The notes below the pieces were generated by a model. That model worked only from the letters and a program-made list of their open reading frames with translations, was not told where the DNA came from and ran no database searches. Positions 21,000 to 31,554 of a stretch of DNA of 40,137 bases are shown here, piece after piece. How positions within the stretch are numbered: the first letter of the stretch is position 1; each line of letters begins with the position of its first letter. Made by a program: the position numbers and the translations under genes. Origin of the DNA: Nannocystineae bacterium (GTDB taxonomy: Bacteria > Myxococcota_A > Polyangia > Haliangiales > Haliangiaceae); contig SLNH01000025.1 of assembly GCA_007133195.1 (NCBI GenBank), forward strand, positions 1 through 40,137. Direction: 5' to 3'.

Positions 21000-22166
21000 A
21001 TGGTACCTGCGTCGATCCTACCCCTGCTCGAGCCGCTCGAGACGTTCGAGGCGATCCGCCGGCGAGCGGCGCGCCTCGGCGACCGCCTGTGCGATCTGTC
21101 TTATGCCAATCCCTATGACGGCGCACAGCAGGGCGCGCGCGCGGCGCTGCGCGACGCGCTCGACGAAAGCCGGCTTCTCAGCCTGCAGTACACTCCTTTT
21201 GGCGGGCACACCGTCGCCCGGCGGGTCGTGGCCGACGACCTGCGGCGCAGCCACGGATTACCGTTCGCACATCGCGATGTGATCCTCACCCCCGGCGCCA
21301 TGTCGGCGCTGCAGATCGCGCTTCTGGCCGCGCACGCCCGAGGCGGCGAGGTCGTGGTTCCCACGCCGTGCTGGCTTGACTACCCCATCTACGCCCGCCA
21401 CGCCGGCGCCACACCGGTCATGGTGCCGCCGGATGGCGACGTGAAGCTCGACCCCCACGCGGTCGCCGCGGCAATCACCGAGCGCACCCGCGCGATCGTG
21501 CTCTCGCACCCCTGTAATCCCACCGGAGAGCGGTATCGCGATTCCACTTTGACACAGCTCGCGGAGGTCATCTCGGCGCGACAAGAGGCCCTCGGCACCG
21601 CCATTACCCTGATCGCTGACGAGACCCATCGGGACTTCACCCCGCCGGGCACCTACCAGAGCCTCAGCCGGCGCTTTTCCCGCGCGGTGATCGTCTACTC
21701 CTTCGGGAAATACCACTTCCTGCAGGGCCAGCGGCTCGGCTATGCCGCGGTTTCGCCGAACCATCCCGAGCGCGACGAAGTCGGCGCCGAGCTCGTTCGC
21801 TGGACCCGGATCGCAGGCGTGGCCACGCCCACGGCGCTCATGCAAAGCGCAATCCCGCGGCTTGTCGAGCTCACATACGATGACGCCTGGCTCGCGCGGC
21901 GGCGCGCGTGGCTCGTAGCCCGACTGCGGAGCGCCGGCTACCGCGTGGCTGAAACCGACGCCACGCTGTTCGTCTACGTGAAAACGCCGCGAGGCTGGTC
22001 CGACTGGGCGTTCACTCGAAGCCTCGCCTCGCGCGGCGTCCTCGTCCTGCCGGCCCCAGTCTTCCACCACAGTGGCTGGTTTCGTGTGGCGCTTACGGCC
22101 TCGGAGCCGATGATCGAACGTGCCCTCGAGGTGTTCGCACAGGAGGTAACTCAGTGCCCCGCATAG
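21000..22166 (+). CDS. PLP-dependent aminotransferase, class I/II fold
   Basis: A 388-residue fold-type-I enzyme. The PLP lysine is K237 in SFGKYHFLQGQRLGY, which lines up exactly with the usual 'SxSK.....G.R.GY'. Other PLP contacts are N173 in HPCNPTG and D207 in IADETH. The tyrosine that normally follows in 'DExY' is replaced by histidine (H210), which is unusual. The C-terminal FRVALTASEPMIERALE carries the carboxylate-binding Arg. Substrate is unknown. It opens a tight cluster: its last 13 bp overlap the asparagine-synthase-like gene. It probably supplies or modifies an amino acid for the downstream carrier-protein module; that is inference. Confidence 0.88.
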   Translation: MVPASILPLLEPLETFEAIRRRAARLGDRLCDLSYANPYDGAQQGARAALRDALDESRLLSLQYTPFGGHTVARRVVADDLRRSHGLPFAHRDVILTPGAMSALQIALLAAHARGGEVVVPTPCWLDYPIYARHAGATPVMVPPDGDVKLDPHAVAAAITERTRAIVLSHPCNPTGERYRDSTLTQLAEVISARQEALGTAITLIADETHRDFTPPGTYQSLSRRFSRAVIVYSFGKYHFLQGQRLGYAAVSPNHPERDEVGAELVRWTRIAGVATPTALMQSAIPRLVELTYDDAWLARRRAWLVARLRSAGYRVAETDATLFVYVKTPRGWSDWAFTRSLASRGVLVLPAPVFHHSGWFRVALTASEPMIERALEVFAQEVTQCPA

Positions 22167-23473
22167 AGCTTTTCGGCGAGTCCGATCCGGTGCTCGCCTG
22201 GGACGGAACCGCGATCTACGGTGACGAAGCCGCGCTCGCCGGCGAGCCGCCGCCAGCGCGGCTCGAGGGTTCGGCTGCGGCCGCGCAGCCGCTCGCCAGC
22301 GGACAGGTGCGCCTGTTTCGCGATCGGCTCGGCCTCGGCAAGCTGTTCTGGGCGAAAAACGCGGGCGGCGATCTCGCCTTCGCCTCGCAGCCGCTAAAGC
22401 TCGTGCGCGCGGGGTATGACCTCGGCGACATCGCGGCGGCTCCGCGGGGTCGCGTCATCACGCTCGACGCGGACGGTAGCCTCGCCTCGGTGAGCGCCCT
22501 TAAACCGGCAGGGCCCACGCCGGCCGTGAGCGCGAGCGTCGCGCAGATCGGCGCCCACATCCGAGAGGCGCTCGATGCCTACCTGGCGGCGGTGGCGACT
22601 GCCTACCCCGACAGGCGCGCGTATCTCTGCCTGTCGGGCGGTCTCGACAGCTCTACGATCGCCGTCTTGGCGCGCAGGCATTTCTCGGCGCTCACCGCGG
22701 TGAGCTTCGACATCGCGGACGCCGGCCGCGCGCCGAGCGCGGACCGACTCGCGGCTGAGCGGCTTTGCGCCGACCTCGGCGTGCCCATGATCGAGGCCAA
22801 CGTCACGACCGAAGAGCTCATTTCGTACCTGGACACCGTGCTCGTCGCCGGCATCGACTGGCGCGATTTCAACGTCCACTGCGGCCTGGTCAACGCCGCC
22901 ATCGCGGACGCGATCGCGCAAAGCTCGTCCGAAGGCGATCCGCCCCCGATCGTCATCACCGGCGATCTCCCAAACGAGCTCCTCGTCGATTACCAGCCCG
23001 AGGTCTACAAGGGCGCCACCTACTACGGGCTGCCGCGGGTCGACGTCGCGAAGCTGCGTTCGGTGCTCGTCGACGGGCTCGACACGTGCCACCGCGAAGT
23101 CGGCGTGTTCGGCGCCTTCGGTCTCTCGGTGGCGCAGCCCTACGCCGCCTGCGTCGACGCCTATCTCTCGCTCCCAGCGTCGCTGCTCGCCGAGCAGGAC
23201 CGCAAGGACCACTTGGTCACGAACATCGTGGGCTCGGAGCTGCCCGCCTACATCTACGAGCGCCCCAAGCTGCGCGCTCAAATCGGAGACACCCACGACA
23301 AGGGAACGCTCGCCGCCTGTATCGATCGGGGTATCGACGGATCGTGGCTCCGGGGCCGGTTCTCGGCGCTTCACGGCGTGGGTGAGGAACGCGCGCTCGA
23401 CCGCTTCATACGTGCCGGGCGCTACCAAACGGCGATGCCAACAGGCACCACCACGACGGAGGAAGATCAATGA
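22154..23473 (+). CDS. Asparagine-synthase-like ATP-dependent amide ligase with degenerate glutaminase domain
   Basis: Residues 161-167 (SGGLDSS) are the PP-loop of the asparagine synthase/beta-lactam synthetase family, followed by a synthase-like domain (VITGDLPNELLVDY, FGLSVAQPYAACVDAYLSLPA). The N-terminal part (1-115) still resembles a class II glutaminase (VRLFRDRLGLGKLFWA, DLAFASQPLKLVRAG) but is about half length, and the protein starts MPRIELF with no Cys at position 2. Glutamine therefore probably cannot be its nitrogen source. Loss of this Cys is the hallmark of beta-lactam synthetase-type enzymes, which adenylate a carboxylate for intramolecular or other amide formation. It overlaps both neighbours. 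Product unknown. Confidence 0.85.
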   Translation: MPRIELFGESDPVLAWDGTAIYGDEAALAGEPPPARLEGSAAAAQPLASGQVRLFRDRLGLGKLFWAKNAGGDLAFASQPLKLVRAGYDLGDIAAAPRGRVITLDADGSLASVSALKPAGPTPAVSASVAQIGAHIREALDAYLAAVATAYPDRRAYLCLSGGLDSSTIAVLARRHFSALTAVSFDIADAGRAPSADRLAAERLCADLGVPMIEANVTTEELISYLDTVLVAGIDWRDFNVHCGLVNAAIADAIAQSSSEGDPPPIVITGDLPNELLVDYQPEVYKGATYYGLPRVDVAKLRSVLVDGLDTCHREVGVFGAFGLSVAQPYAACVDAYLSLPASLLAEQDRKDHLVTNIVGSELPAYIYERPKLRAQIGDTHDKGTLAACIDRGIDGSWLRGRFSALHGVGEERALDRFIRAGRYQTAMPTGTTTTEEDQ

Positions 23474-23757
23474 ACACGTCCAATATCGCGCTCAAGCTCG
23501 AGTCGTTTACTCGCAAATCGTTTCAGATCGCCGATGACGATCCGGACTTTAGCCGCTCCGTCCATCTCTTCGAAGAGGGCTACGTCGACTCCATCGGCGT
23601 GATCGAGATGCTCACCTTCATCACCGAGACCTTCGGCGTGCAAATCCCCGACGACGCGCTCCAGTCCGACGGCTTCGCCACCATCGACGGGATGGCGCAG
23701 GTGATCGCCGAGCTCATGGCGCCGGCGGACGCCAAAGCCGCCGTCACCGCCTCCTAG
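23470..23757 (+). CDS. Acyl/aminoacyl carrier protein
   Basis: A 95-residue carrier protein. The phosphopantetheine attachment site is S41 in LFEEGYVDSIGVIEML, followed by helix III-like sequence ETFGVQIPDDAL and a C-terminal AQVIAELM. It has the DltC/aminoacyl-carrier style 'EGYVDSIG' rather than the housekeeping AcpP 'LGADSLD'. It overlaps the asparagine-synthase-like gene by 4 bp (ATGA) and is 10 bp before the next gene. No ketosynthase, acyltransferase or AMP-ligase is adjacent, so loading must come from the neighbour or from a gene elsewhere. Confidence 0.92.
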   Translation: MNTSNIALKLESFTRKSFQIADDDPDFSRSVHLFEEGYVDSIGVIEMLTFITETFGVQIPDDALQSDGFATIDGMAQVIAELMAPADAKAAVTAS

Positions 23758-23767
23758 GAAGCCGAAC

Positions 23768-24517
23768 ATGAGGGAGCTGGAAAAGGGGCTGCGAGCCCTG
23801 ATCGCCCGGGCGGCGCGGGGCGAGGTTTCGGAAATCGCCGCCGTGCTGCGTGCAGGCCTTTGGAGCGAGCGGCATTGGATCGTGCTGCGCCGGGATCTGA
23901 CCGAGGCACTCCAGGTCACCAAGCCTCCGGTGCCGTTTTCGATCCGCCGCTATCGCCCCGCCGACGCCGACGTTCTGTTCGACGAAGGCTCGCGGGCCGA
24001 GCGGCGGGAGCGCGCGCGGCGCGAGCGCTGGATGCGCAGAGGGCTGGGCCGGTGCTACGTCGCGTCGCTCGCGGACGGCACCGCGACGTTCATGCAGTGG
24101 CTGTGCACCCCGGAGGAAAACGCGGCGCTCCGCGAAAGCCTCCCGTTCGTCAAGCCGGCTGCGCTGCCCGGCGGCGTCGTTCTGGAAGGGGCCTATACCC
24201 CTCCGCGGTTCCGGCGCCTACCGATCATGCCGGCGGCGATGGCCCAAATCGCCGAGGAGGGCCGCCAGCTCGGCGCGCGCTTCGCCGTGGTCTATGTCGA
24301 GGAGCAAAACGCGTCGATGATCAGAGCCGCCAAGTTGGCCGGGTTTACCCCCTGGCGCACCCGGCGCGTGCGGCGCCGGCTGTTTTTGTCGCTCTTCAGT
24401 GAATCGGCGCTTACCAGCACGGCCGACGAGCTGGCGACGGGCTCGATGCGGCCACGGAGATCGGCCGCGGCGCAAGGGGCGAAACGGGCCCGCGAGCGCG
24501 CATCTGCATCCGCGTAA
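23768..24517 (+). CDS. GNAT-like N-acyltransferase family protein
   Basis: A 249-residue protein. Residues ~55-210 look like a GNAT fold: FSIRRYRPADADVLF, a central beta strand VVLEGAYTPPRFRRLPIMPAAM where the acyl-donor loop would lie, and ARFAVVYVEEQNASMIRAAKLAGFTPW, the typical 'N..s...a.k.GF' ending. The classic Q/RxxGxG/A loop is not clearly present. The C-terminal ~35 residues are Arg/Ala-rich. Because it follows a carrier protein by 10 bp, it may use an acyl-carrier thioester as donor, as some GNAT-fold enzymes do; that is inference. Confidence 0.72.
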   Translation: MRELEKGLRALIARAARGEVSEIAAVLRAGLWSERHWIVLRRDLTEALQVTKPPVPFSIRRYRPADADVLFDEGSRAERRERARRERWMRRGLGRCYVASLADGTATFMQWLCTPEENAALRESLPFVKPAALPGGVVLEGAYTPPRFRRLPIMPAAMAQIAEEGRQLGARFAVVYVEEQNASMIRAAKLAGFTPWRTRRVRRRLFLSLFSESALTSTADELATGSMRPRRSAAAQGAKRARERASASA

Positions 24518-24591: not shown

Positions 24592-25485
24592 ATGGCGTCG
24601 CTACCACAAGCTTCCACCGTGTCAGCCACCGGGCTCGGTTACCGCGCGGCGTTCGCGGAGGCGCTGCTGTCGATGCACGCCCCGCCGGTGCCGTGGCTGG
24701 AGATCCACCCCGAAAACTACATCCGGCGGGGCGGGCGCTACGCCCGGCTGTTCGATCGCGCTGCCGAGCGATTCCCTCTCGTGCCCCACGGGCTCACGAC
24801 CTGCTTCGGCAATCCAGAGCCGCCGGGCGCCGCCTGGCTGCGCGACCTGCGCGCGCTGTGCGAGCGCATCGGGGCGCCGTGGTTTAGCGACCACCTGTGC
24901 TTTAGCGCCGCCGGCGGCGCTCACGCCCACGATCTTCTCCCGGTTCCGCGGACGACCCAGATGGCCCGGGAGGTGGCCGACCGCATCTGCCGCACGCGAG
25001 ACGCGCTGGGGATCCCGGTGGCCGTCGAAAACGTAAGCTTCTACGGACATCCCCCGGGCTCCGAAGGCGCCTCGGACGCAGCCTTCATCACCGAGGTCGT
25101 CGAGCGCGCTGACGCCCTGCTCCTCCTCGACGTCAACAACGTCGTGGTAAACGCACGAAACTTCGGCTACGACGCGGGCGCCTACGTAGACGACCTCCCC
25201 CTCGAGCGCGTGGTGCAAATCCACATCGCCGGCCACACGCGCCGGAGCGACGGGCTGAGAATCGATACCCACGATCGCCCCGTCGACGCAGAGACCACCG
25301 CGCTGCTCGGCCGCGTCCTCGCCAAAACGGGTCGCGTCCCGGTGCTGCTCGAACGCGACGGCCGCTACCCTCCGCTCGAGGCGCTGCTTTCCGAGCTGGC
25401 CGACATTCAGGCTGTCGTGGACCGAGCGCTCCATGTCGACCAGGCCGAAACGCCGCCCCGGACGGGCGCCGACGCCGCGCGCTGA
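24592..25485 (+). CDS. MNIO (DUF692) multinuclear non-heme iron enzyme, MbnB/BufB-like
   Basis: A 297-residue TIM-barrel protein with every landmark of the DUF692 family: GLGYR, VPHGL (H66), WFSDHLCFS (D100, H101), HDLLPVP, VAVENVS (E146), LLLDVNNVVVNARN (D180, N183), QIHIAGH (H211), DTHDRPV and a final LERDG. These residues hold two or three iron ions. Known members (MbnB, TglH, bufferin BufB) oxidatively modify cysteine or other residues of ribosomal peptides together with a partner protein. ATG 24592 is chosen; an in-frame ATG at 24553 adds 13 residues. TATGCT at 24552-24557 may be a -10 box. The partner gene follows after 4 bp. Confidence 0.95.
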   Translation: MASLPQASTVSATGLGYRAAFAEALLSMHAPPVPWLEIHPENYIRRGGRYARLFDRAAERFPLVPHGLTTCFGNPEPPGAAWLRDLRALCERIGAPWFSDHLCFSAAGGAHAHDLLPVPRTTQMAREVADRICRTRDALGIPVAVENVSFYGHPPGSEGASDAAFITEVVERADALLLLDVNNVVVNARNFGYDAGAYVDDLPLERVVQIHIAGHTRRSDGLRIDTHDRPVDAETTALLGRVLAKTGRVPVLLERDGRYPPLEALLSELADIQAVVDRALHVDQAETPPRTGADAAR

Positions 25486-25489
25486 CCCC

Positions 25490-26233
25490 ATGGCACCTGC
25501 ACAGGACTTTCGCGACCAGCTCGTGCGCTACTGCTTCGCCGAGGCGCCCGATCCCGGGCTACTCGCCGATCTCGGCAAAGACGCCGAAGCGTGGCAGCTA
25601 TACCGGCGCATGATCCGCAATCGCATCTTCCGCTTCATAGCCGGCGCCCTGCCGCGCTATCGCCGCGCCGTCGGCGGCGAGCGGTTCGATGGGGATCTGG
25701 CCCGGTGGCTCGAAAGTGGCGGCAGCGCCGAGCGCCAGATGTTCCTCCTCCCGCTCGCGCACGCTCGCTGGCTGCTTGCGCACGGGCCCCCCGAGGAGCC
25801 CGCGTGGGCGGGCGATCTGCTGCGTTTGGAGGCGGCGCGCATCGAGGTCCGAAACGCCGACGATGTCGAGCCGGGTCCCCTCCGCCCGTTCGACTTTCAG
25901 CTTCCCCTCGCGGTCTGCGAGCCGATTCGGTGTCTCCAACCGGCCTGGGACGTGACCCGCAAGGAGCCGCACAGGCTGCCGTCGCTCCGGGTGCTCATCG
26001 TGTGGCGCGGTCCGAAGCGCACCGCGCGCACCGCGTGGGCGGAGCCTTGGGTCGGCGAGTGGCTGTGCGACGAGCGGGCGGCGTCGTGGCCTTCCCACGA
26101 CCTGATCCGAAACATCTGGCAAGCGCGCGGCGTGGTCCCCACCACCGAACGGATCGAGCACGCCGCGAGCGTCCTGGGCCCGCTCGTGGAGGCCGGCGCC
26201 GTGGCCAGCCCCGCCGCGGCCAAGTCCCGGTAG
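25490..26233 (+). CDS. DUF2063-type partner protein of the MNIO enzyme (BufC/MbnC-like role)
   Basis: A 247-residue protein. Residues ~5-95 match the DUF2063 N-terminal domain: FRDQLVRYCF, then WQLYRRMIRNRIFRFIAGALPRYRRAVGGERFDGD in pieces of the expected order, then a long helical/strand domain (PFDFQLPLAVCEPIRCL, SLRVLIVWR). Such proteins bind the precursor peptide leader and present it to the DUF692 enzyme. ATG 25490 is 4 bp after the MNIO stop, so the two are co-translated. The first 19 codons of the longer frame from 25433 overlap the MNIO gene and are rejected. Confidence 0.88.
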   Translation: MAPAQDFRDQLVRYCFAEAPDPGLLADLGKDAEAWQLYRRMIRNRIFRFIAGALPRYRRAVGGERFDGDLARWLESGGSAERQMFLLPLAHARWLLAHGPPEEPAWAGDLLRLEAARIEVRNADDVEPGPLRPFDFQLPLAVCEPIRCLQPAWDVTRKEPHRLPSLRVLIVWRGPKRTARTAWAEPWVGEWLCDERAASWPSHDLIRNIWQARGVVPTTERIEHAASVLGPLVEAGAVASPAAAKSR

Positions 26234-26349
26234 CCGGGGCCGGGCCCAAAAACCAACAGAGCGCGCTGTCGTTCTATGCCGCTGCGCCTTCGACACGGCG
26301 GGAGACCCTGTGAGAGCCTCGCCGGGCACGAACATCTGGATGACCTGCG

Positions 26350-26375
26350 CCCCGAACGGCCCTCGCGGCCCGGGG
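26350..26375 (+). other. Hairpin in the spacer upstream of the acidic precursor gene
   Basis: CCCCG/CGGGG (5 bp) encloses GGCC/GGCC (4 bp) with a 3-nt bulge and the loop CTCGC, 43 nt before the next ATG. It could protect or process a separate precursor mRNA, or attenuate transcription between the enzyme genes and the precursor. There is no T-tract. Confidence 0.3.
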
Positions 26376-26418
26376 AGAAGCAGCGTCCCGCGCGACTCAC
26401 CATTGGAGGTCTACACGC

Positions 26419-26718
26419 ATGAAGACGCCCTCGACCAGTAAACGCCTGATGCTATCCGCCGCAACCGCCTTCGGCATGTCGATCGGTGCGGCCGGCGTCG
26501 CCGGGTGCGGCGGCGCCGAAGACGCCGCCGAAGAGCCCGAAGAGCCGGCCATCGAAGAGCAGGACTGCGCCGGTGAAGCCGATTGCAGCGCCGCAGCCGA
26601 CGACATCGACGCGGACTACGCCGACGAAGCCGACTGCAGCGGCGAAGCCGACGATGAGGCCGCCGCGGACGACGAGGAAGCCGACTGCGGCGCGGACTGC
26701 GCCGGCGCAGACGAGTAG
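26419..26718 (+). CDS. Acidic Cys-containing lipoprotein, probable MNIO-RiPP precursor
   Basis: 99 residues. The N-terminus has Lys/Arg, a hydrophobic stretch and a perfect lipobox, GVAGC (C30), so signal peptidase II processing and lipidation are predicted. The mature part is almost only Asp, Glu, Ala, Gly and Cys, with cysteines at 50, 56, 73, 90 and 94 in a recurring (A/Q)DC-x-GEAD-like context. This fits a substrate for the adjacent MNIO/DUF2063 pair, as bufferin precursors are small secreted Cys proteins beside the same enzyme types. A strong Shine-Dalgarno (GGAGGT, 8 bp before ATG) suggests high expression. The role as precursor is inferred from position and composition; metal binding is a reasonable guess. 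Confidence 0.8.
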   Translation: MKTPSTSKRLMLSAATAFGMSIGAAGVAGCGGAEDAAEEPEEPAIEEQDCAGEADCSAAADDIDADYADEADCSGEADDEAAADDEEADCGADCAGADE

Positions 26719-28949: not shown

Positions 28950-30233
28950 TTAGGTGTGGTCGCGAACGACCTGGGTGATCGCCCCCGTGATGCGCGAGAG
29001 ATCACCTTGCTCGATCACGAACGGCGGCATCGTGTAGACGAGGCGGCCGAACGGCCGAATCCATACGCCCCGGTCCACGAACGCGGGCTGCACGACGTCC
29101 ATGTCGACCGGATCGCAAAGCTCCACCACGCCGATGCCCCCGAGCGCCCGCACGTCTTTGACCTGAGCGAGCTCGCGGCACGGGGCGAGCTCGCGGACGA
29201 GCTGCTCCTCGATGGCGGCGACGCGCGCCTGCCAGTCCGACTGAAGCAGCAGATCGATGCTGGCGAGCGAGACCGCGGCGGCCAGCGGGTTGGCCATGAA
29301 GGTGGGCCCGTGCATGAACAGGCCGGGTGCGCTGTCGCGAATGCCTGCGGCCACCTCTCCGGTCGCGAGCGTCGCCGCCGCGGTCATCATGCCGCCGGTG
29401 AGCGCCTTGCCCAGGCACATGATGTCCGGGGCGATGCCCGCGTGCTCGCAGCCGAAAAGCCGGCCCGTTCGGCCGAAGCCGGTGGCGATCTCGTCGAGGA
29501 TGAGGAGCGCGCCGTGCTCGTCGCAAAGCTCGCGCACCCGCTCGAGGTAACGCGGCGAGTAAAACCGCATGCCCCCGGCGCCCTGGACCACGGGCTCGAG
29601 GATCACCGCCGCGATTTCACCGCCGCGCTGTTCGAGGCGGCCTTTGAGCTCGCCGATGTGTGCCTCGTCCCACGGCTCGCCGAAGCTCGGCGACGGCGGC
29701 GGGACGAAGTGATGCTCGGGCAAAGCGCCGCGAAACAGGGTGTGCATGCCGTTTACGGGGTCGCAGGTGGCCATCGCGCCGAACGTGTCGCCGTGGTAGC
29801 CGCCGCGCACGGTCAAGAGCGACTGCTTTTTCGGCCTGCCGCGCCCCTGCTGATACTGAAGGGCCATTTTGATGGCCACCTCCACCGACACCGAACCCGA
29901 GTCGCACAAGAACACGCGCTCCAGCGGATCGGGGGCGAGGGAGGCCAGCTTCTCGGACAGCTCCACGGCCGGCCGGTGGGTGAGGCCGCCGAACATCACG
30001 TGGGCCATGTCTTTGGCCTGGCGCTCGATCGCCTCGACGAGCGCCGGGTGCCCGTAGCCGTGAATCGCCGCCCACCACGACGACATGCCGTCTACGAGCT
30101 CGCGCCCGTCCTCGAGGTAAAGGCGGGTGCCCTCGGCGCGGCGCACCGGGTAGATCGGGCCGACCGCCGGGGAGGCGTTATAGGGATGCCAAACGCTGCG
30201 CCTGTCTCGGGCGAGGAGATCGCGTGCGGTCAT
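28950..30233 (-). CDS. bioA: Adenosylmethionine-8-amino-7-oxononanoate aminotransferase
   Basis: Transfers the amino group of S-adenosylmethionine to KAPA, giving DAPA in biotin synthesis. The 427-residue protein has the BioA start (DRRSVWHPYN), the SSWWAAIHGYGHPALVEA block, FCDSGSVSVEVAIKMALQYQ, YHGDTFGAM, LLILDEIATGFGRTG and the PLP lysine in CLGKALTGGMM. The SAM-specific Tyr/Trp-rich region (SSWWAAIHG) separates it from generic class III aminotransferases. Other bio genes are not in the window. It is divergent from the Rieske gene with a 171-bp shared control region. Confidence 0.94.
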   Translation of the reverse strand: MTARDLLARDRRSVWHPYNASPAVGPIYPVRRAEGTRLYLEDGRELVDGMSSWWAAIHGYGHPALVEAIERQAKDMAHVMFGGLTHRPAVELSEKLASLAPDPLERVFLCDSGSVSVEVAIKMALQYQQGRGRPKKQSLLTVRGGYHGDTFGAMATCDPVNGMHTLFRGALPEHHFVPPPSPSFGEPWDEAHIGELKGRLEQRGGEIAAVILEPVVQGAGGMRFYSPRYLERVRELCDEHGALLILDEIATGFGRTGRLFGCEHAGIAPDIMCLGKALTGGMMTAAATLATGEVAAGIRDSAPGLFMHGPTFMANPLAAAVSLASIDLLLQSDWQARVAAIEEQLVRELAPCRELAQVKDVRALGGIGVVELCDPVDMDVVQPAFVDRGVWIRPFGRLVYTMPPFVIEQGDLSRITGAITQVVRDHT

Positions 30234-30242
30234 CGGCGAGCG

Positions 30243-30248
30243 ACCCTA
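30243..30248 (-). promoter_or_regulatory. Candidate -10 box of bioA
   Basis: TAGGGT on the minus strand begins 15 nt before the bioA ATG. It would give a very short or no leader. Confidence 0.3.
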
Positions 30249-30392
30249 CCACGGCGCCTCCCGCACCCTTACGAAGGCGCCTCGCCTGCCCTGGGCCTGA
30301 GCCCCGCCTGCGACTCGGACTCCCGGCGCTCGAGCCGCCGCCGGGTCTCCCGGACCGAAGCGCCGCGGCGCGACGTTCCGTCCGATTCGAGC

Positions 30393-30398
30393 TACGCT
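30393..30398 (+). promoter_or_regulatory. Candidate -10 box of the Rieske gene (leaderless)
   Basis: TACGCT begins 12 nt before the GTG at 30405; the same TACGCT precedes the HIT gene at 13 nt. Confidence 0.4.
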
Positions 30399-30404
30399 GT
30401 CCTG

Positions 30405-31484
30405 GTGACCCACGAGCCCCGCCTCACGCCCCCCCTCGCCAAGGGACACATCTCCGTCGCGCGCCTCGCCGACTACTGGTACGTGGCGCTCCAGTCCAAC
30501 GAGCTCGGCCCGCGCCGCCCGGTCCAGCGGACGGTGCTCGGCACCCCCTTGGCGCTGTTTCGCGACGGCCAAGGGCGCCCCGCGGCGCTTTTGGACCGCT
30601 GCCCGCACCGAAACGTGCCGCTTTCGCTCGGCCGCATCCACGAAGACGGCCATCTCGAGTGCCGCTACCACGGTTGGCGATTCGACACGAGCGGCGCCTG
30701 CCGGGCCATTCCCGGCCTGTGCGACGGCGCCCCCGGCCGCGCACACAACGCAACCGCTTACCCGGTGCGCGAACGCGACGGTCTCGTCTGGGTCTATATG
30801 AACCCCGATGCGAAAGAGGTGCGCGGCGAGCCGTTTTCGTTCGAGGAGCGGCCCGGATACACCACCGTGCGCGGCACCATCGACATGGAGGCCTCCCTCC
30901 ACGCCACCCTCGAAAACATCCTCGACGTTCCCCACACCGCCTTCCTACACCGGGGCCTGTTCCGCAAGGAGGCGACCACCGAGATCGAGGCGGAGGTGAG
31001 GCGCGGCCCCGACCGGGTGGAGGCCGAGTTCATCGGCGAACCCCGTCCGCCCGGCATCGCCGCGCGCCTTTTGTCCCCGTCGGGCGGCACAGTGGAGCAC
31101 ACCGATCGGTTCATCCTCCCGTCGATCGCGCAGGTGGAGTATCGGCTCGGCGAGGAAAACCACTTTCTCATCACCCAAACCCTCACCCCCATCGGCGACC
31201 ACCATACGCGGATCTTTGCCGACATCTCGTTCCGGCTGCGCATCCCGGGTTTCGTCCTGCGCCCGCTCCTAACCCCCGTGGCGTGGCACATCCTCCGCCA
31301 GGACGCCGCCATCCTCCGCGCCCAGACGGAAAACGTCAGGCGTTTCGGCGGCGAGCAGTTCGCCCACACCTCCATCGACCTGCTGGGCCGGCCGATCTGG
31401 CGGCTTCTGCGCGAGGCCGAGCGCGGCGAGCTGCGTTCCCTAGACGGCGGCACGGAGGCCCAGCGCGTTCGCATGACTGTTTGA
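30405..31484 (+). CDS. Rieske [2Fe-2S] non-heme iron oxygenase, large subunit
   Basis: A 359-residue ring-hydroxylating-type oxygenase. The Rieske motif is C66-x-H68 (CPHRN) and C86-x2-H89 (CRYHGW). The mononuclear iron site is ENILDVPHTAFLH, with D174, H177 and H182 in the expected spacing. Related enzymes (vanillate demethylase, choline and phytochemical monooxygenases) act as a single alpha subunit with a separate reductase; none is adjacent. Substrate unknown. The frame is open far upstream, but that part is antisense to bioA; GTG 30405, with a TACGCT box 12 nt before it, gives a normal N-terminus (AKGHISVARLADYWYV). Confidence 0.93.
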   Translation: MTHEPRLTPPLAKGHISVARLADYWYVALQSNELGPRRPVQRTVLGTPLALFRDGQGRPAALLDRCPHRNVPLSLGRIHEDGHLECRYHGWRFDTSGACRAIPGLCDGAPGRAHNATAYPVRERDGLVWVYMNPDAKEVRGEPFSFEERPGYTTVRGTIDMEASLHATLENILDVPHTAFLHRGLFRKEATTEIEAEVRRGPDRVEAEFIGEPRPPGIAARLLSPSGGTVEHTDRFILPSIAQVEYRLGEENHFLITQTLTPIGDHHTRIFADISFRLRIPGFVLRPLLTPVAWHILRQDAAILRAQTENVRRFGGEQFAHTSIDLLGRPIWRLLREAERGELRSLDGGTEAQRVRMTV

Positions 31485-31554
31485 GCCGGCTCGGCGGGCC
31501 GTGGAGCCGGCCGAAATCCCGCCGCCGCGCGTAGAGCCCGACCGCCTGGGCCGT

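Follow-up and report, generated by a model that had tools for sequence, protein, structure and literature searches.

Organization of the locus

Three genes on the forward strand of the window (the whole 40,137-nucleotide stretch of Nannocystineae bacterium DNA that was analyzed) encode an MNIO enzyme, a partner protein recognized from its predicted fold, and a small acidic lipoprotein (Table 1).

Table 1. Features of the MNIO locus, with positions in the window
Feature	Position	Strand	Basis
MNIO (DUF692, MbnB/TglH/ChrH family) enzyme	24592..25485	+	PF05114, HvfB/BufB models, 3BWW/TglH similarity, invariant residues
MNIO partner protein: N-terminal DUF2063-like helical domain and C-terminal RRE-like domain	25490..26233	+	PF09836 below cut-off, phmmer, predicted fold
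Shine-Dalgarno GGAGGT of peptide gene	26405..26410	+	8 nt ahead of ATG, read from sequence
Precursor lipoprotein, 99 aa: signal peptide 1-29, lipid Cys30, acidic mature part	26419..26718	+	sequence, motif/charge table, motif control

The enzyme (297 aa) matched PF05114 at 280.6 bits, above the Pfam cut-off of 25, and its best NCBIfam models were HvfB (251.9 bits) and then BufB (249.2 bits), both under their equivalog cut-offs; by family scoring it is nearest to these two. It was also similar to PDB 3BWW (E = 3.4e-46) and to TglH (E = 4.3e-20). Judged by alignment to relatives and to 3BWW, the conserved metal-site motifs (His, Asp, Glu, Asn) are kept, and H66, H101, H113, E146, N147, D180, N182, N183, H211, D225, H227, E254, and D256 are among the retained residues, which are invariant in 48 related enzymes. 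The domain score and these residues bear out the original prediction of a complete DUF692 enzyme with its metal-site motifs. A genome scan found this to be the sole MNIO gene of the genome and, by analogy, its product is predicted to oxidize Cys residues of the peptide.

A DUF2063-type partner had been claimed 4 bp later. The spacing is right (4 bp separate the MNIO stop from the partner ATG at 25490), but Pfam does not return the family: the protein scored 22.1 bits against PF09836 (DUF2063), under the cut-off of 27.2, and is thus not a type 1 PME by Pfam; with the NCBIfam HvfC model it reached 32 against a cut-off of 142. By phmmer, most of the proteins encoded just behind the closest related MNIO genes matched it (E about 1e-7 to 1e-25). 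Its AlphaFold2 model (pLDDT 85.7) gave 3DEE (NGO1945) as the top Foldseek match (E = 8e-6, probability 1.00, TM 0.59/0.70), with TglI also at probability 1.00 (8HI7 chain A, E = 1.7e-4; 8HCI chain A, E = 9.6e-4), and MbnC next (7DZ9 chain C) at a nonsignificant E of 0.09. Since the protein is too diverged for the Pfam and NCBIfam cut-offs, its assignment comes from homology to the partners of relatives and from the predicted fold; the model gives it the NGO1945 fold, a helical DUF2063-like domain joined to an RRE-like domain, and so identifies it as an MNIO partner (type 1 or 2). By analogy, its predicted role is peptide binding and activation of the enzyme.

The peptide has the lipobox V-A-G-C30, called by pattern, beside an MNIO gene, and so agrees with the sequence definition of a DAG-RiPP. 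Each of its five internal Cys (Cys50, 56, 73, 90, and 94) is preceded by Asp and followed by Ala, Ser, or Gly, the contexts being, in order, EQDCA, EADCS, EADCS, EADCG, and GADCA, with 5, 16, 16, and 3 residues between successive Cys and no CxxxxC after the lipid Cys. Asp or Glu occupies 30 of the 70 residues of the mature peptide, which has no Lys or Arg and a net charge of -30. When the mature part was shuffled 20,000 times, at least five DC pairs appeared in 7 trials and EADC never occurred three times, both statistics having been picked after the sequence had been seen. GC content by codon position (0.74/0.55/0.82) is like that of the surrounding genes, as expected of a real gene in this genome; together with the sequence, it upholds the original prediction of a 99-residue acidic Cys protein behind a GGAGGT. 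The peptide had no match to any known family in Pfam or NCBIfam. Its repeats are E-A-D-C-S/G and variants, EGKCG being absent, which places it outside the Buf_EGKCG/oxazolin precursors; neither the peptide (no Pfam match) nor the genome has DUF2282, the mark of Buf1 bufferins.

A scan for sigma-70 promoters and terminators at the locus gave nothing useful. Neither the window nor the relatives sampled showed a copper gene, DoxX, or a metal regulator in the vicinity. A search for conserved neighbors that might point to a metal or a function found no recurring unit other than the trio itself in the sampled loci. Upstream (21000-24517), a class I/II aminotransferase, an asparagine-synthase-like protein whose glutaminase is only a weak remnant, a small carrier, and a protein of 249 aa that has no Pfam match are encoded by four tightly packed genes, apparently a small biosynthetic cassette in its own right. 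Downstream, a class-III, BioA-like aminotransferase (PF00202, 418.6 bits) is encoded on the minus strand at 28950-30233. In the frame of ORF 28956-31484, the motif CPHRN...CRYHGW at about 30400-31484 suggests a Rieske-type oxygenase; ORF 30224-31534, which overlaps it in another frame, has no Pfam match.

Related MNIO genes adjoin lipoproteins with repeated Cys motifs

Related MNIO genes were drawn from the genome scan, from relatives, and from the phylum, and further regions were extracted. The nearest enzymes, 45-52% identical to that of the window and nearly all from Myxococcota, nearly always have as a neighbor a lipoprotein that is small, in most cases acidic, and built with repeats of E-[A/G]-S-C-[G/S]; the repeats of the window peptide keep this frame but place Asp ahead of each Cys. 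A Cys-motif precursor was detected beside 75 of 91 distinct related MNIO genes, with a lipobox in 57 of the 75 (these are counts of distinct enzymes rather than of independent events, and the sample of relatives includes near-duplicate genomes); in most of the other 16, either a contig end truncates the region or a candidate is present that escaped the filter. Among the 241 Cys of the lipoprotein relatives, the next residue is Gly, Ser, or Ala at 235 and the residue at -3 is Glu at 164, and the window peptide agrees in both respects. CxxxxC, as in SCGEGSC, occurs in 45 of the 57 lipoprotein precursors. Some relatives (L133, L128) carry exact EGKCG repeats in their lipoproteins, which by sequence provides a link to the oxazolins.

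The motif is specific to such loci in the DNA examined. Of 13,997 open frames (1.08 Mb), 55 had three or more E-[AGQS]-x-C-[AGS] motifs in a span of 60 residues, and all 55 lie in stretches with an MNIO gene or are repeats of the window's own peptide. A profile of 11 related precursors with the window peptide left out did not recover that peptide from its own genome at E <= 1, and the same profile with the peptide included is circular. Because the related peptides are short and repetitive, this negative result is not strong counter-evidence; homology of the peptide is not statistically supported by the profile, so the case is made by motif, location, and enzyme phylogeny.

Two variations on the arrangement were seen. 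In L099, L100, and L142, two similar lipoprotein precursor genes stand in tandem upstream of one MNIO gene, and in L015 and L017 (Obscuribacter phosphatis and a Melainabacteria MAG) the precursors that accompany the MNIO gene are secreted, rich in Lys, and of two types: one carries EGSCK repeats, and the second, encoded by an upstream gene, has DSSCGEGSCG motifs.

Enzyme phylogeny and gene order

In a tree of 77 enzymes, that of the window lies within the lipoprotein-precursor clade (SH-aLRT 96 for 50 rows and 91 for 27 rows). Two rows of this clade labeled SPI look like artifacts, as judged from their sequences: a lipobox appears in L116 if it is read from a GTG start, and L149 reads ATLLAC, which the lipobox pattern missed. 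The L116 precursor (L116:1276-1729) is a long lipoprotein with 15 Cys and repeats of NADCxGGCPSEADGEQxC, probably with a GTG start; its MNIO branches beside that of the window without firm support. These results tie a whole Myxococcota MNIO clade to lipid-anchored precursors, instead of scattered cases.

The end branch of the window enzyme is the longest in the lipoprotein clade (0.8), and we found no comparably similar MNIO enzyme in the other genomes examined from the same family, to which DnaB (70-76% identity) assigns the contig. This lineage may have gained the trio, or other lineages may have lost it. Decay, with the enzyme or peptide nonfunctional, would account for both the long branch and the loss of the upstream gene order, and the lack of a similar enzyme in the family fits with it. 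Three open frames, intact catalytic residues, normal codon-position composition, and a strong ribosome-binding site, however, make a decaying system highly improbable.

The original prediction had suggested looking for such a gene beside related enzyme pairs. Co-occurrence in Myxococcota relatives was strongly positive, but gene order differed: the peptide gene is directly upstream of the MNIO gene in all 74 of the other detected cases, and downstream in the window, 185 bp from the partner gene. This position and the separate ribosome-binding site would fit an enzyme pair that acts on a different, unlinked precursor, the lipoprotein gene being an unrelated neighbor; the genome does have other acidic lipoproteins (e.g., L173), and the profile lacking the window peptide failed to recover it. 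We nevertheless regard this as very unlikely, given that the motif was confined to MNIO loci in the DNA examined, that no Cys-motif gene lies upstream of the window enzyme, and that no better candidate emerged when the genome was searched by profile. No convincing second precursor was found elsewhere in the genome, the two best profile matches proving on inspection to have no Cys repeats. The related loci, the shared motif, and the enzyme tree thus favor the predicted MNIO RiPP system, with the lipoprotein as the probable substrate of the enzyme pair.

Asp before Cys and enzyme specificity

The residue before Cys sets the window peptide apart. In the lipoprotein relatives (n = 241), it is Ser at 177 Cys, Lys at 13, Asn at 8, and Asp at only 5, all five in L131. 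The L131 precursor, an acidic lipoprotein encoded upstream of its MNIO gene and carrying five EGDCG motifs, is the closest parallel to the window peptide, and its enzyme branches beside those of L133 and L128 (EGKCG) and L139 (EGSCG). Asp before Cys goes with the most acidic peptides (net charge -30 in the window, -28 in L131, and -26 in L116); it is also present in secreted, nonlipidated precursors, e.g., L013 and L134, and from these sequences it seems to have arisen more than once.

FonBC tolerates Ala, Arg, or Thr before Cys, and Glu or Phe severely reduces processing (PMC12668002). By analogy, Asp at this site may block the usual reaction unless the enzyme is adapted, and the poor handling of Glu therefore leads us to predict an adapted enzyme with altered specificity at the window. 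At position 120, a Phe in most of the enzymes, those of the window and L116 both have Arg; as a specificity residue it is a weak lead, because among Asp-type rows only L116 shares it, which is too few independent cases.

The peptide might accordingly be a lipidated substrate and yet not an oxazolin, either because Asp-Cys is converted to another group or because a polyacidic chain with Asp-flanked azoles binds a harder metal (zinc, iron, or calcium). In its favor are the Asp before all five internal Cys, which is rare and tied to the most acidic peptides, the FonBC result for Glu (PMC12668002), the shared Arg120, and the known activity of MNIOs on Asp in addition to Cys (PMC12636315). Every conserved metal-site motif is retained, though, and L131 lacks Arg120 and groups with EGKCG and EGSCG enzymes, which suggests one chemistry on several residues; on balance, this alternative is unlikely. 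A more specific proposal is that enzymes serving extremely acidic lipoproteins with Asp-Cys repeats form an MNIO subgroup of changed specificity, whose carboxylate-flanked azole (or other product) binds a noncopper metal at the cell surface; it is speculative and quite unlikely. The natural series of Lys, Ser, Asn, and Asp before Cys nonetheless lets the choice of Cys and the effect of the flanking residue on the metal be tested, and activity of the Asp variant, if present, would restrict how widely the FonBC specificity data apply.

Proposed mechanism

From the genes, motifs, predicted partner fold, and association across Myxococcota described above, we infer the reaction, its timing, the metal, and the role of the product as follows. 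In the cytoplasm, the RRE-like domain of the partner would bind the unexported precursor and let the iron enzyme act on the internal Cys, each of which would most likely lose four hydrogens to give a 5-thiooxazole, as with HvfBC and FonBC on EGKCG repeats. The modified peptide would then be exported by Sec, lipidated at Cys30 by Lgt, and relieved of its signal peptide by signal peptidase II, so that no dedicated protease or exporter would be needed. That NedA is both modified and triacylated indicates that modification can precede export and lipidation (PMC12636315). The product would be anchored in the envelope as a strongly acidic chain that offers up to five thiolate-azole sites. It would bind a soft metal, probably copper, as a buffer, a role that we infer from work on oxazolins and bufferins. 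By analogy with these systems, we consider it likely that the trio is a self-contained MNIO RiPP system with a lipid-anchored, probably copper-binding product modified by 5-thiooxazole formation.

Comparison with known systems

The statement in the original prediction that known precursors use only ordinary signal peptides is outdated: among Buf2 precursors, about 16% are predicted to be lipoproteins (PMC12452194), and triacylation of NedA has been shown (PMC12636315). With such lipidated products already published, the window product is not the first lipid-anchored MNIO product; the locus is an unusual representative of a partly known type of system that is common across related bacteria.

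NedABC of Neisseria dentiae, a lipidated oxazolin and hence a DAG-RiPP (PMC12636315), shares with the window an MNIO, a partner, and a lipoprotein precursor with repeated Cys motifs. Both would use the ordinary lipoprotein pathway, as shown by mass spectrometry for NedA, which NedBC also changes by -12 Da (PMC12636315), and by the lipobox pattern for the window. NedA, however, has EGKCG, with Lys before Cys, whereas the window peptide has Asp before Cys, a mature chain without basic residues, and a gene downstream of the enzymes.

HvfBC, FonBC, and NedBC take four hydrogens per Cys in EGKCG repeats (PMC12668002, PMC13419390, PMC12636315), the product being assigned as a 5-thiooxazole for HvfA and FonA (PMC12668002, PMC13419390) and left open for NedA (PMC12636315). 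HvfABC and FonABC (oxazolin/fontiphorin; Buf_EGKCG, captophorins) resemble the window in having a repeat of five residues whose fourth is Cys and whose fifth is small, and HvfB is the top NCBIfam model for the window enzyme. They differ in that their repeats are EGKCG, that HvfA has an ordinary secretion signal, and that FonBC is poor with Glu before Cys.

The CxxxxC family comprises MNIO-linked signal-peptide precursors (PMC12452194) and Cluster X comprises lipoprotein MNIO precursors (PMC12636315). The window peptide is likewise an MNIO-linked signal-peptide precursor and, as in Cluster X, a lipoprotein, but unlike the CxxxxC family it has no such spacing after the lipid Cys. Since CxxxxC is frequent in the lipoprotein precursors of the wider Myxococcota group, both published families may overlap that group.

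Finally, the Buf1 and Buf2 bufferins share with the window an MNIO and a DUF2063-type partner, and some Buf2 precursors share a predicted lipoprotein signal. Unlike Buf1 (DUF2282), which has no counterpart in the window genome, and Buf2 (6/12 Cys), to which the pattern of relatives such as L069 and L072 is similar, the window peptide is an acidic repeat and lacks that Buf2-like pattern; the metal-buffering role of the bufferins is the one proposed, by analogy, for its product.
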